63,812 nucleotides of DNA from Bacteroidota bacterium. GTDB taxonomy: Bacteria > Bacteroidota > Bacteroidia > Chitinophagales > Chitinophagaceae. The position numbers and the translations under genes are program-made. The stretch is taken from positions 1 to 63,812 of the forward strand of contig JABDGW010000004.1 in assembly GCA_013285855.1 (NCBI GenBank), read 5' to 3'. Below the pieces are notes generated by a model. The model was not told where the DNA came from. It saw only the letters and a program-made list of their open reading frames with translations, and ran no database searches. Positions 32,601-36,539 of this stretch are shown here, piece after piece; within the stretch, counting starts at the first letter, position 1, and each line of letters starts with the position of its first letter.

Positions 32601-33593
32601 ATGAATTTTTTTCGTTACATCAATATTGCAAGAAAAGTTTACAGTGAAATAAAAATTCAAACCCGATTCAATAAAACATTTCTTATTCCTTATTTAAATG
32701 AACTTGAAAGAAAATACAACGGTACATTTCAACCGGAGCAGCGAGAGAAAATAACAGATTATTACGGCTTATTCATCACATCATTTTTATGCAGCAGCTA
32801 TAAAAGATTATATGGAAAATCTTTAACTGATGAAGAACGCAAAAGAGCAACATTATTTGGCATTCTCACACCGGTTGGCGATGATCTTTTTGATATTGAC
32901 AACCTGGATAATGAAAGCATAAGGCAAATAACATTTCAGCCGGAAACATTTAATGCAACTACTTTTTCTGGGCATGTTGCCAAAGAAATTCAAACATATT
33001 TGTTAAACGCTGTTCCGTATAAGCAGGAATATCTTGAAGCTTCAAAAAATGTATTGGATATACAGGTTGAAACCGCAAAGCAAACAAATCCTCAAATTCC
33101 AAAAGATGAAATGCGGCGCATTACGTATATAAAAGGCGCAGTAAGTGTTATCATTTATCATCAATGTTTAAATGAAGTTGCAGATGTACAAATGAAGGAA
33201 GTTTTATTTTTAATTGGAAGTTTATATCAATTGGGCAATGATATTTTTGATTTGTATAAAGATGTTCGCGATAACATTTATACGCTTGTAAATACCTGTG
33301 ATGATTTTATTCAGTTTAAAAAGAATTTTATTGAAAGAGTGAAACTGCAAAATGAAAAAATTTACGCTCTGCCTTATCTAAAAAAAGATAAAGAAGATTT
33401 TTGTATTGTAATGAATACAATTAATGCAAGAAGTTTAGTGGCAATTGACCAGTTTATTACAACTCAGAAAAGATATGGAAATAAAATTGATTGGTGGAAA
33501 CTTGAAAGAAAAGATATGATTGTTGATATGGAGAAGACAAAGAACATTTTAAAGTGGTTAAAATATATTTTTAAACTTCCGGCCATTTATTAA
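32601..33593 (+). CDS. Class I isoprenoid / terpene-synthase-like protein
   Basis: The 330-residue, all-helical, soluble protein has the spaced motifs of class I terpene synthases. The Asp-rich metal motif is D94-D95-L-F-D98. The second metal motif N213-D-I-F-D217-L-Y-K-D221 is an NSE-like triad with the usual Lys before the last acid. An RRIT segment (172-175) lies about 40 residues upstream of it, where the pyrophosphate sensor is expected. The R291-Y292 pair lies 78 residues downstream. The length fits bacterial class I cyclases. In such enzymes three Mg ions bound by these motifs ionise a prenyl diphosphate. Sequence outside the motifs looks divergent, so cyclase versus prenyltransferase is open. 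It starts 83 bases after exbD. Confidence 0.68.
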   Translation: MNFFRYINIARKVYSEIKIQTRFNKTFLIPYLNELERKYNGTFQPEQREKITDYYGLFITSFLCSSYKRLYGKSLTDEERKRATLFGILTPVGDDLFDIDNLDNESIRQITFQPETFNATTFSGHVAKEIQTYLLNAVPYKQEYLEASKNVLDIQVETAKQTNPQIPKDEMRRITYIKGAVSVIIYHQCLNEVADVQMKEVLFLIGSLYQLGNDIFDLYKDVRDNIYTLVNTCDDFIQFKKNFIERVKLQNEKIYALPYLKKDKEDFCIVMNTINARSLVAIDQFITTQKRYGNKIDWWKLERKDMIVDMEKTKNILKWLKYIFKLPAIY

Positions 33594-33627
33594 ATTTTGA
33601 AGTTTTATAACATAAAGATGTTTTGAA

Positions 33628-33717
33628 CGTCATGTCGAGGTAACGGGATATTTCTGGAATTAAAGGATGTTTAATATAAAAGATTTCTCTCCCGCTAATT
33701 GCGGGATCGAAATGACG
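33628..33717. repeat. 90-bp palindromic repeat element (MITE/REP-like)
   Basis: The element begins CGTCATGTCGA and ends TCGAAATGACG; these 11-bp ends are inverted repeats with one mismatch. An internal hairpin CCCGC-TAATT-GCGGG lies at 33691-33705. It has no coding content. It resembles short palindromes with GTCATTTCGA-type ends seen in other Bacteroidota spacers. A second element with the same outermost bases is at 43222. Confidence 0.75.
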
Positions 33718-33751
33718 AGCTTACCTTCAAACAAAGTAGGCAAGTACAATA

Positions 33752-34912
33752 ATGTTTAAAAAATTTATCTCTTTATTTTATATAATTTTTGCATCAAAGT
33801 ATTTGCATGCACAAAACAAAGATTCGCTTATTCATGCATTGATTGAAAACGTACAATCTATGCAGGTAAAGCAGGATGGTGAGTTTTATGCAGGCATGTT
33901 TCCAACCTATCGCGAATGCGGTGGTGCGCCGCATAATTATCAGCCTGATAATAATATTTTTTATACAGCAGTTTCCGCATTCGCCTTACGCAATATGTTG
34001 CCTTATTTGAATGATGCTGATAAAAATATTGCGCAGCAGATCATTGATAACATTCAAAAAGTTTATCCTTATTACAGAAATAAGCATGGTTATCCTTATT
34101 ATGGTTTTTGGCCAACAGATGACGTAATAATGCCGCACACTTATTATTTCAAATACTTAAAACAGGTTTTTGGACAAGGCGAAGATTCAGACGATACGGT
34201 GATGATCTTAATGACTGACAGCAGCAATGATAAAGATGTAACTGACTTTAAAAAAAGATTGGAAGCTGTTGCTAATTTATCATCACCAAAAAGAAAAATT
34301 ATATCTACTTACAGCAAATATAAAAATGAGCCTGCATACAGCACCTACCTGGGAAGCCGCACTACACCTGATTTTGACTTTGCTGTGCAATGCAATATTT
34401 TATATTTTGTCTTGGATAAGCATTTGCCTTTTGTACAACAAGACAGTTCTACACTTCACCTGATTACAGAAATGCTTCGCAATCGTGAATACATGAAAGC
34501 GCCAACTTATCTTTCTCCGTATTATGTGCGCTCATCCATTTTAATTTATCATGTTGTAAGATTGATGAATGCTTTTCATATTCCTGCATTAGAAATATAT
34601 AAACAACAATTAATTGATGATGCAAAAAAAGAATTTGATGCAAGCACGAATGTGATGGATAAACTTTTATTGAGTACTTCTTTGATGCGGCTTGGTGTAA
34701 AAGCTGAATTACCGCCATTTCTCTCCATCAATGAATTTGAAAATACCAATCAGCGACAATTCATTTTTTTCCAGGCACGGGCAGCGTTTTCTTATCCTTC
34801 ACCTCTTAAAAAAATATTTTTGCACTGGAGTTATATTAATTATTATTTCTATTGCCCGGCTTATTATAAAATTTTATGGCTGGAGAATTTGGTAATGCAG
34901 GAGCATGAATAA
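33752..34912 (+). CDS. Exported alpha-toroid-like protein with class II cyclase-type DxDDT motif
   Basis: The 386-residue protein begins with a signal peptide or membrane anchor (MFKKFISLFYIIFASKYLHA). The mature part is helical, with aromatic-rich loops suggesting an alpha/alpha toroid: NIFYTAVSAFALRNMLPYL, YPYYGFWPTDD, FDFAVQCNILYFVLDKHLP, SPYYVRSSILIYHVVRLM. The segment GEDSDDTVMIL (D145, D147, D148, T149) matches the DxDDT protonation motif of class II terpene cyclases and squalene-hopene cyclases. At about 365 residues it would be a single toroid, whereas those enzymes normally have two. QW repeats are not obvious. It follows the class I synthase-like gene by 158 bases. It may be an atypical cyclase or an unrelated toroid protein. 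Confidence 0.55.
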   Translation: MFKKFISLFYIIFASKYLHAQNKDSLIHALIENVQSMQVKQDGEFYAGMFPTYRECGGAPHNYQPDNNIFYTAVSAFALRNMLPYLNDADKNIAQQIIDNIQKVYPYYRNKHGYPYYGFWPTDDVIMPHTYYFKYLKQVFGQGEDSDDTVMILMTDSSNDKDVTDFKKRLEAVANLSSPKRKIISTYSKYKNEPAYSTYLGSRTTPDFDFAVQCNILYFVLDKHLPFVQQDSSTLHLITEMLRNREYMKAPTYLSPYYVRSSILIYHVVRLMNAFHIPALEIYKQQLIDDAKKEFDASTNVMDKLLLSTSLMRLGVKAELPPFLSINEFENTNQRQFIFFQARAAFSYPSPLKKIFLHWSYINYYFYCPAYYKILWLENLVMQEHE

Positions 34913-35018: not shown

Positions 35019-36539
35019 ATGGAATTCTTACAACAACTTAATATAAAATCAGGAAATGCCGGCACTTCTACCGGCAGCAAACAATTAACCGGTAAAGGAG
35101 AACTAATCAAATCTTATTCACCTGTTGACGGTAAATTGATAGGATGCGTTACCAGTACAACTAAAGAAGACTACAGTTTAGTTTTAGAAACTGCACAAGA
35201 AGCCTTTTTGGAATGGCGCAAATGGCCTGCGCCTAAACGTGGTGAGATTGTACGGCAATTTGGCGAGGCTTTGCGCAAATACAAAGAACCGCTGGGTAAA
35301 CTGGTAAGTTATGAAATGGGTAAAAGTCTGCAGGAAGGTTTGGGAGAAGTGCAGGAAATGATTGACATCTGCGATTTTGCGGTTGGTTTAAGCCGCCAGT
35401 TATACGGCCTGAGCATGCACAGTGAAAGGCCGGGACATAGAATGTATGAGCAATGGCATCCGCTGGGAATTGTAGGAATAATTTCTGCTTTTAATTTCCC
35501 GGTGGCTGTGTGGAGTTGGAATGCCGCCCTTGCTTGGGTATGCGGAGATGTTTGTGTTTGGAAACCTTCATCAAAAACATCTTTATGTGCTGTTGCCTGC
35601 CAGCAAATTGCAGCAGAAGTTTTTGCAAAGAATAATGTACCTGAAGGCGTAAGCTGTCTTGTAACCGGCAATGCCTGCGGCGACCTGATGAATGCAGATG
35701 AACGTATTCCGCTGATGTCTTTTACCGGGTCTACACGTGTTGGAAAAATAGTTGCGAAAACTGTTGCGGAACGTTTTGGCAGATCTATTTTGGAGCTTGG
35801 CGGCAACAATGCAATTATTATTACAGAGAATGCCGATATGCAAATGGTTTTAACCGGAGCTGTATTTGGTGCAGTTGGAACTGCAGGACAGCGTTGTACT
35901 TCTACCAGGCGTTTAATTATTCATGAAAGCATTTATGATAAAACAGTTGAATCGCTTAAATCTTCCTATAGCCAGTTAAAGATCGGCGATCCTTTAGATG
36001 CAGCTAATCATGTTGGTCCATTGATTGATACCAAAGCCGTTGATGATTATTTAAAAGCCATTGAAACTGCAAAAAACCAGGGCGGAAAAATTATTGTGGA
36101 AGGAGGGAAGCTTGAAGGAGAACAATATGAAAGCGGTTGTTATGTAAAACCATGTATTATAGAAGCGGATAATCATCTTGAGATTGTACAAACAGAAACT
36201 TTTGCACCTGTATTATATGTGATGAAATATAAAACCATTGATGAAGCTGTTGCAAAACAAAACGGTGTTCCGCAAGGATTATCCTCCTCTATTTTTACAA
36301 ATAATATGCGGGAGATGGAATTGTTTTTATCAAATGAAGGAAGCGATTGCGGCATCGCCAATGTGAATATTGGCACCAGCGGTGCAGAAATTGGGGGAGC
36401 CTTTGGCGGTGAAAAAGAAACGGGCGGAGGAAGAGAAAGTGGCAGCGATGCCTGGAAGGCTTACATGCGCAGGCAAACCAATACTATTAATTACAGCAAT
36501 AAATTACCATTGGCACAGGGAATTAAGTTCAGCGTATAA
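35019..36539 (+). CDS. ALDH7-type aldehyde dehydrogenase (alpha-aminoadipic semialdehyde dehydrogenase-like)
   Basis: The 506-residue NAD(P)-dependent dehydrogenase is closest in visible sequence to ALDH7A1/AmaB, which oxidises alpha-aminoadipate semialdehyde (piperideine-6-carboxylate) in lysine catabolism. The catalytic Cys is C293 in GTAGQRCTSTRRL and the general base is E259 in SILELGGNNA. GIISAFNFPVAVWSWNAALA forms part of the cofactor site. The C-terminal GGAFGGEKETGGGRESGSDA is characteristic of ALDH7. No other lysine-degradation gene is nearby, so the substrate is inferred from family only. It appears monocistronic. Confidence 0.93.
   Translation: MEFLQQLNIKSGNAGTSTGSKQLTGKGELIKSYSPVDGKLIGCVTSTTKEDYSLVLETAQEAFLEWRKWPAPKRGEIVRQFGEALRKYKEPLGKLVSYEMGKSLQEGLGEVQEMIDICDFAVGLSRQLYGLSMHSERPGHRMYEQWHPLGIVGIISAFNFPVAVWSWNAALAWVCGDVCVWKPSSKTSLCAVACQQIAAEVFAKNNVPEGVSCLVTGNACGDLMNADERIPLMSFTGSTRVGKIVAKTVAERFGRSILELGGNNAIIITENADMQMVLTGAVFGAVGTAGQRCTSTRRLIIHESIYDKTVESLKSSYSQLKIGDPLDAANHVGPLIDTKAVDDYLKAIETAKNQGGKIIVEGGKLEGEQYESGCYVKPCIIEADNHLEIVQTETFAPVLYVMKYKTIDEAVAKQNGVPQGLSSSIFTNNMREMELFLSNEGSDCGIANVNIGTSGAEIGGAFGGEKETGGGRESGSDAWKAYMRRQTNTINYSNKLPLAQGIKFSV

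Follow-up and report, generated by a model that had tools for sequence, protein, structure and literature searches.

In a 63,812-nucleotide stretch of DNA from a Bacteroidota bacterium of the Chitinophagaceae (contig JABDGW010000004.1 of assembly GCA_013285855.1, hereafter the window), two neighboring genes, A and B, are predicted to encode a class I isoprenoid synthase fold and a stand-alone class II terpene cyclase fold of the TC-beta type, respectively. The reading we favor, to which we assign a probability of about 0.42, is that A and B catalyze two consecutive steps of one isoprenoid pathway that is split across the inner membrane, with a class I reaction in the cytosol followed by a class II reaction in the periplasm. 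For this pathway we computed the folds, the acid network of B, and the conservation of the pairing, and we infer the export of B, the order of the steps, the intermediate, the substrate, and the product. The genome to which the window belongs is 67% complete and consists of 157 contigs. The features on which the argument draws are given below; residue counts refer to 61 distinct A sequences, reduced from 115 entries, and to 122 distinct B sequences, reduced from 137 entries (some loci were entered twice with differing starts), of which 25 are paired with A.

32601 to 33593, forward strand: open reading frame (ORF) A, 330 amino acids, predicted class I isoprenoid synthase fold with a non-canonical second metal motif and no signal peptide seen (AlphaFold2, Foldseek, VIA).
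32880 to 32894, forward strand: first Asp-rich motif of A, DDLFD (residues 94-98), with D94 in 61/61, D95 in 53/61, and D98 in 60/61.
33132 to 33134, forward strand: K178 of A (61/61), which aligns with the KT lysine of trans-isoprenyl diphosphate synthases (3lom, E 0.041).
33237 to 33263, forward strand: second motif of A, NDIFDLYKD (residues 213-221), an N/D, D, D variant of the NSE or second Asp-rich motif, with D214, D217, and D221 each in 61/61.
33507 to 33509, forward strand: R303 of A, a nearly invariant C-terminal arginine (60/61).
33594 to 33751, forward strand: A-B spacer, 158 nucleotides, hairpin-forming (folding z -2.17).
33752 to 34912, forward strand: ORF B, 386 amino acids, predicted stand-alone TC-beta-type class II terpene cyclase fold, predicted exported (AlphaFold2, Foldseek, VIA, profile).
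33752 to 33811, forward strand: putative signal peptide of B, residues 1-20, with cleavage before Q21 (sequence and hydropathy score).
34184 to 34198, forward strand: DSDDT of B (residues 145-149), the class II acid motif, with D147 as proton donor and D145 as candidate base by mapping.
34394 to 34396, forward strand: N215 of B (122/122), which aligns with the Asn of the INVLY segment of drimenol synthase and is the presumed counterpart of AstC N324.
34523 to 34525, forward strand: Y258 of B (122/122), which aligns with AsDMS Y427 and is the presumed counterpart of AstC Y361.
34778 to 34780, forward strand: R343 of B, nearly diagnostic of the sequences paired with A (22/25 paired, 0/97 others).

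The AlphaFold2 model of B (predicted local distance difference test, pLDDT, 90.4; predicted template modeling score, pTM, 0.89), which like that of A was built on a family alignment (30 sequences for B, 29 for A), has the predicted alpha-barrel of a class II terpene cyclase. Drimenol synthase occupies the first ten rows of a Foldseek search of the PDB with this model (best E 7.5e-9), and its TC-beta domain superimposes on B in VIA-align with a Z score of 30.0 over 302 residues (4.3 Å, 17% identity), above MstE (22.6), squalene-hopene cyclase (up to 22.1), and sugar epimerases (18.0). When a profile of 39 diverse B sequences was compared with 177,635 PDB sequences, drimenol synthase was again the best match (E 9.8e-5 and 0.0015) and the third match was unrelated (E 0.58); no drimenol synthase match was obtained with a narrower profile, built from 30 sequences of the family. 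Alignment of B by hhalign with the aligned 112-residue piece of drimenol synthase gave a probability of 95.1% (E 3.2e-8). PF13243, the squalene-hopene cyclase family, does not match B and matches one of 30 relatives at E 0.14. B also lacks a HAD domain: it has no HAD Pfam match, and residues 1-384 of its 386 match the later part of the drimenol synthase chain.

The catalytic residues expected of such a fold are in place, as B carries the DxD acid motif together with the positioning Asn and Tyr that a class II cyclase of the TC-beta type requires, and D145, D147, N215, and Y258 are each invariant among the B sequences. In the portions of the published mutational work used here, D331, D333, and Y427 are essential in AsDMS (PMC12365925), and the acid D273 of AstC is held by N324 and Y361 with D271 as the base, the D271, N324, and Y361 mutants being inactive (PMC13244436). 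In our alignments D145 and D147 of B correspond to D331 and D333 of AsDMS and to D271 and D273 of AstC. That residues sensitive to mutation in these two enzymes map to D145, D147, N215, and Y258 supports the class II reading of B. Of the 137 B entries, 127 have D at the fourth position of the motif, 9 have C, and 1 has S, and the motif is thus DxD[D/C] rather than strictly DxDDT. A carbohydrate enzyme or binding protein built on an alpha/alpha-barrel, with a coincidental DxD, would account for the cellobiose 2-epimerase-type barrels found at a VIA Z of 18.0; we regard this as very improbable, given that drimenol synthase scores 12 Z units higher, that it is the only type of PDB entry below E 0.01 with the B profile, and that the Asp/Asp/Asn/Tyr network is invariant.

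Protein A is predicted to adopt a class I isoprenoid synthase fold (pLDDT 95.1, pTM 0.90). The best 50 of its 352 Foldseek matches in the PDB are all isoprenoid synthase or UbiA-type folds, led by dehydrosqualene synthase (E 1.8e-3) and a class IB synthase (E 2.4e-3), with none of the 352 below 0.001. In VIA-align the best Z score is 16.8 (259 residues, 3.5 Å) with Sat1646, tied with MoeN5, class IB, and prenyl synthase structures. An earlier sequence-only reading of this stretch had proposed that class I and class II isoprenoid enzymes are encoded side by side here, and had singled out DSDDT as a class II hallmark and DDLFD and NDIFDLYKD as class I motifs. Both ORFs and all quoted motifs were found where it placed them, structure prediction agrees for both proteins, and the invariance of D145 and D147 in B, like that of the aspartates in A, goes beyond chance; the two observations that would have spoken against the proposal, folds of another kind and homologues that never occur together, were looked for, and neither was what we found.

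The sequence of A also departs from the canonical class I pattern. Its first motif supplies the DDxxD/E that class I terpenoid synthases require. The canonical NSE triad reads (N,D)Dxx(S,T)xx(K,R)(D,E), and a canonical NSE is ruled out for the second motif by the Asp at the Ser/Thr position in all 61 sequences; position 213 is N in 47 and D in 14. Canonical class I enzymes carry an RY pair about 80 residues after the NSE, and the RY at residues 291-292, previously counted as a third class I motif, proved to be a chance occurrence (R291 in 5/61, Y292 in 8/61). R303 is a possible stand-in for the missing arginine, and Q155, Q210, and D309 are further invariant positions (61/61). With the trans-isoprenyl diphosphate synthases (IDS; PF00348) A shares its fold, as it does with the MoeN5 type, and an invariant Lys and a Q-xx-(N/D)D-xx-D segment. 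It differs from them in lacking GGKRIRP and the RRG after the first motif, elements that bind isopentenyl diphosphate and that the canonical enzymes of the same-genus genome G007 show in full or nearly so. Motifs of class IB enzymes (DYLDNLxD and DY(F,L,W)IDxxED) are absent from A as well.

Family models place neither protein. Both A and B fall below every cut-off in Pfam and NCBIfam scans, in keeping with the earlier impression of an unrecognized arrangement, and the only matches in Pfam, NCBIfam, and PHROGs were sub-threshold ones that we judged to be chance. Against PF00348, A scores 13.2 bits (gathering score 27), with weak matches in 9 of 29 relatives (best E 4.3e-4), and its hhalign probability against a same-genus IDS and a PSY-type enzyme is 0.9% and 0.1%, with single sequences as templates. 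Assignment of A as a squalene/phytoene synthase was rejected, the Pfam matches being weak and limited to 5 of 29 members; a phmmer match of A to the repeat protein 7ue2 and short matches of A profiles to growth hormone (E 0.17 and 0.016) were also set aside as chance. The sequence of A suggests a class I enzyme related to the IDS whose second motif is non-canonical.

In regard to distribution, the two genes occur together far more often than expected. Among 244 genomes of the family, A is present in 83, B in 57, and both in 48 (Fisher odds ratio 23, p 2e-19), and among 101 genera A is present in 41, B in 27, and both in 25 (odds ratio 45, p 7e-11), both tests ignoring relatedness. The genes are adjacent in 23 of the 48 genomes, 19 times in tandem with A first and 4 times convergently, and adjacency persists at B identities down to about 31% and across the switch from tandem to convergent orientation. 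In a scan of named genomes, in which 80 of 95 loci were kept, A lies directly upstream in all 15 loci most similar to B (48-79% identity); the other 65 have no A within the flank, which was short in some. The pair is found in the named strains Parafilimonas terrae DSM 28286 and Ilyomonas limi. The survey of homologues suggested with the sequence-only reading thus recovers a pair conserved in a lineage of the Chitinophagaceae, with A in 48 of the 57 genomes that have B.

The histories of the two partners differ. On a tree of the 122 B sequences, 24 of the 25 paired sequences form one group (Shimodaira-Hasegawa-like approximate likelihood-ratio test, SH-aLRT, 85), the remaining one (from genome G067) is unplaced, and the paired label needs 2 changes; on a tree of the 61 A sequences it needs 5, and strongly supported branches require at least 4 of these. 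Both trees were quickly built and contain some long branches. Judged from these sequence trees, paired B is essentially one lineage whose A partners come from several A subfamilies, and that one kind of B has been joined to different A subfamilies speaks for a functional link between the two. In one genus belonging to another family (L161, L129, L130, L128; genomes G480, G298, G454), A-family genes form tandem pairs and are present in a third copy as well, and B has no match there.

The order of the proposed steps follows mainly from the presence of a predicted signal peptide on B and from the absence of one on A, where none was seen on inspection of the N-terminus. The B protein of the window begins with MFKKFISLFYIIFASKYLHA followed by Q; most paired relatives are alike, often ending in A-Q, and their starts mostly combine a charged N-terminus, a hydrophobic core, and a junction of this A-Q type. 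By hydropathy score, a signal-peptide-like segment is present in 94 of the 122 B sequences and in all 25 paired ones, L047 and L048 scoring only with a longer choice of start codon. B is therefore predicted to be exported by a Bacteroidota-type signal peptide, and class I before class II is the favored order. B sequences of several further families lack such a segment, their starts lying about 25 residues further in, and most B homologues of other families (L090-L110, L242, L249; Dyadobacter, Rudanella) lack a signal-peptide-like start; the B family thus seems to have changed compartment.

In the split pathway that we favor, A, as an IDS-like enzyme in the cytosol, would use metal ions held at its two Asp-rich motifs to bind a prenyl diphosphate, and would ionize it with departure of the diphosphate. 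The outcome would be either a free terpene, as hydrocarbon or alcohol, or the transfer of the prenyl group to a lipid acceptor. The resulting lipid would reach the periplasmic face of the membrane, where D147 of exported B, positioned by N215 and Y258, would protonate the terminal double bond and B would cyclize the far end of the prenyl chain. Five complete paired genomes each encode two PF00348 synthases and one PSY-type (PF00494) gene, and the window's own genome has one PF00494 gene and two PF00348 matches that resemble a single split gene. With two canonical IDS and a PSY-type gene in each of the five complete genomes, prenyl diphosphates would be supplied without A. The PF13243 cyclase is absent from the six paired genomes tested, the incomplete genome of the window included.

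Several observations weigh against this pathway, beginning with the distribution of the genes. In the family, A is missing from 9 of the 57 genomes with B, and B from 35 of the 83 with A. Across 325 genomes sampled from the whole class, 33 outside the family have B and 15 have A, with both only in G332 and there on different contigs. The scarcity of shared genomes outside the family, together with the family genomes that have B without A, indicates that B in general does not need A. The same counts, along with annotated neighbors that are mostly housekeeping genes, would suit a reading in which the two enzymes act on separate substrates, B cyclizing a periplasmic prenyl lipid such as a quinone tail or polyprenyl phosphate, A making some other product, and adjacency reflecting co-regulation. 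Such independence is at odds with an adjacency that is maintained at low B identity, through the change from tandem to convergent orientation, and in 15 of 15 of the most similar named loci, and with a B that is paired with different A subfamilies and has its own residues at positions 257 and 343; we consider it quite unlikely.

Further points against the split pathway concern the export call and the head-group end of B. The signal peptide was called from a hydropathy score and inspection of N-termini, and 28 of 122 B sequences, one of them truncated, have no signal-peptide-like start. For phosphate recognition by AsDMS, the portions of the report used here describe Y373, Y426, and R378 as critical, and R380A, R425A, and R513A as substitutions that gained activity, making these arginines dispensable (PMC12365925). 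The mapping of B around residues 199-207 has low alignment confidence, and with this limit Y373 corresponds to position 199 (Tyr in 17/25 paired and 0/97 other sequences) and R378 to position 205 (basic in 5/25 paired), with an R or K at position 203, two residues off, in 24/25. Y426 corresponds to position 257 (Tyr in 19/25 paired); R380 and R425 correspond to D207 and P256, both in 25/25 paired sequences, and R513 is unaligned. R343 is kept in 22/25 paired sequences, position 343 in the 97 unpaired ones being N, S, D, or G. Paired B may thus have a head-group end of its own (R/K203, Y257, R343), in principle able to hold a polar or phosphate group. That paired B could hold a phosphate or diphosphate makes a neutral substrate, and a class I enzyme acting first, less likely, and within the split pathway R/K203, Y257, and R343 suggest a polar or anionic substrate head, which favors the version in which A passes its prenyl group to an acceptor. 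The idea that B has lost a diphosphate clamp was dropped, since AsDMS can do without R380 and R425, and since most paired B sequences have Tyr at the critical positions and carry R/K203 and R343.

These residues would also serve a labdane-type order in one compartment, in which B makes a cyclic prenyl diphosphate that A then ionizes, B's N-terminal helix being an uncleaved anchor or B being otherwise cytosolic. A class II step followed by a class I step is known from plants, fungi, and actinobacteria; some relatives of B have no signal peptide, and the tied best VIA rows of A include 7e4n (Sat1646) and 7e4o, titled as class I pimarane-type diterpene synthases. Most paired B starts predict export, however, and no such start was seen on A. 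The replacement of AsDMS R380 and R425 by D/E and P in B also speaks against this order but counts little, both arginines being dispensable in AsDMS. On balance we consider this order unlikely.

B resembles AsDMS of Aquimarina spongiae and the fungal AstC and AncC in its TC-beta fold and Asp/Asp/Asn/Tyr protonation network, and paired B mostly has Tyr at the positions aligned with Y373 and Y426 of AsDMS. It differs from them in having no HAD phosphatase domain, in its predicted signal peptide, in a motif that is mostly DxDD and not DxDTT, and in missing the equivalents of R380 and R425. In the portions used here, the AsDMS report proposes a stand-alone TC-beta ancestor (PMC12365925), of which family B is a candidate relative. 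MstE, a merosterolic acid synthase, is likewise a single-domain class II cyclase, although its identity to B is only about 10%; by its PDB titles it acts on geranylgeranyl dihydroxybenzoate, which is not a diphosphate, and the literature searched contained no report of an exported form. SqhC of Bacillus is of the squalene-hopene cyclase type, and differs in this from the paired genomes tested, which lack PF13243, and from B in the latter's predicted export. In the sesquarterpene pathway of YtpB and SqhC, as described in the portion of the source used here, the class I enzyme acts first and the class II enzyme then cyclizes its product (PMC7839719), which is the order we favor for A and B. A lacks the class IB motifs, unlike YtpB, and this pathway is thus a precedent for the order of steps and not for the protein family. 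Labdane-type pairs of diterpene synthases resemble A and B in being adjacent class I and class II genes, and differ in that A and B possibly act in the opposite order and in separate compartments, B being single-domain and A having a non-canonical motif.

In the window, A and B follow exbB and exbD and precede an aldehyde dehydrogenase gene, with ExbB (PF01618, 3.3e-26) and ExbD (PF02472, 1.7e-20) encoded closely upstream. The position of the pair after exbBD, which the sequence-only reading had pointed out, is real, but of the 61 neighborhoods inspected, only those of the window and of G007 have exbBD no more than five genes away from A or B, and it was rejected as a partner. Neighbors scanned outside the pair are ordinary genes that vary between lineages and are mostly housekeeping (M42 peptidase, RibBA, SIR2, Thi genes, RecO, CTP synthase, alanine racemase), and no classical biosynthetic gene cluster was seen among them. 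An aldehyde dehydrogenase-like gene of one blastp cluster (35019-36539 in the window) adjoins A or lies close to it in seven of the loci inspected, whether or not these are paired (the window, L063, L066, L068, L071, L073, L173), and a gene that is release-factor-like by eye stands close to A or B in nine; these reflect a shared genome position.

Other observations were made at individual loci. In G067 (L062:7754-9688), the stop codon of a UbiA-family gene abuts the start codon of A, and the predicted start of B lies inside the end of A, an apparent UbiA-A-B operon. In G007 (Parafilimonas terrae; L061:500-5720), a set of ebo-type genes (EboA domain, TatD-like, EboC UbiA-like, AroB-like, EboE) lies about 2.6 to 7.8 kb downstream of B. 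The window's own genome carries a second, unpaired B copy (L074:8387-10533, on G000:C33), and there, as in L075, L076, and L078, unpaired B adjoins one conserved gene that is YggS-like by eye only. Of 200 shuffled versions of the A-B spacer, 195 fold less well than the spacer itself, which is single copy in the genome (G000). A plasmid search with A gave no match.

In open-access literature, searches for class II terpene cyclases and the periplasm returned mycobacterial-lipid work only, those for signal-peptide terpene cyclases in Bacteroidetes only work that we judged unrelated, those for genome mining of class II terpene synthases in Bacteroidota nothing, and those for Parafilimonas or Ferruginibacter with terpenes or isoprenoids taxonomy only, results that do not show absence from print. 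What is new here is a stand-alone TC-beta protein without a HAD domain, predicted to be exported and paired with a non-canonical class I enzyme. The pair recurs in the Chitinophagaceae, but as A and B fall below the Pfam and NCBIfam cut-offs, genome mining based on such models would probably miss it.

The A/B pair points to an undescribed route to ring-shaped lipids. We know of no periplasmic class II terpene cyclase, and such an enzyme, if confirmed, would be a new location for class II chemistry as we understand it. A more ambitious interpretation, which we hold as doubtful, is that these bacteria perform periplasmic terpene cyclization, in which a cytosolic class I enzyme is followed beyond the inner membrane by a stand-alone Bacteroidota TC-beta cyclase that makes an undescribed cyclic membrane lipid, and that this TC-beta lineage may be a present-day relative of the single-domain protein from which the HAD-TC-beta drimenol synthases are proposed to descend.

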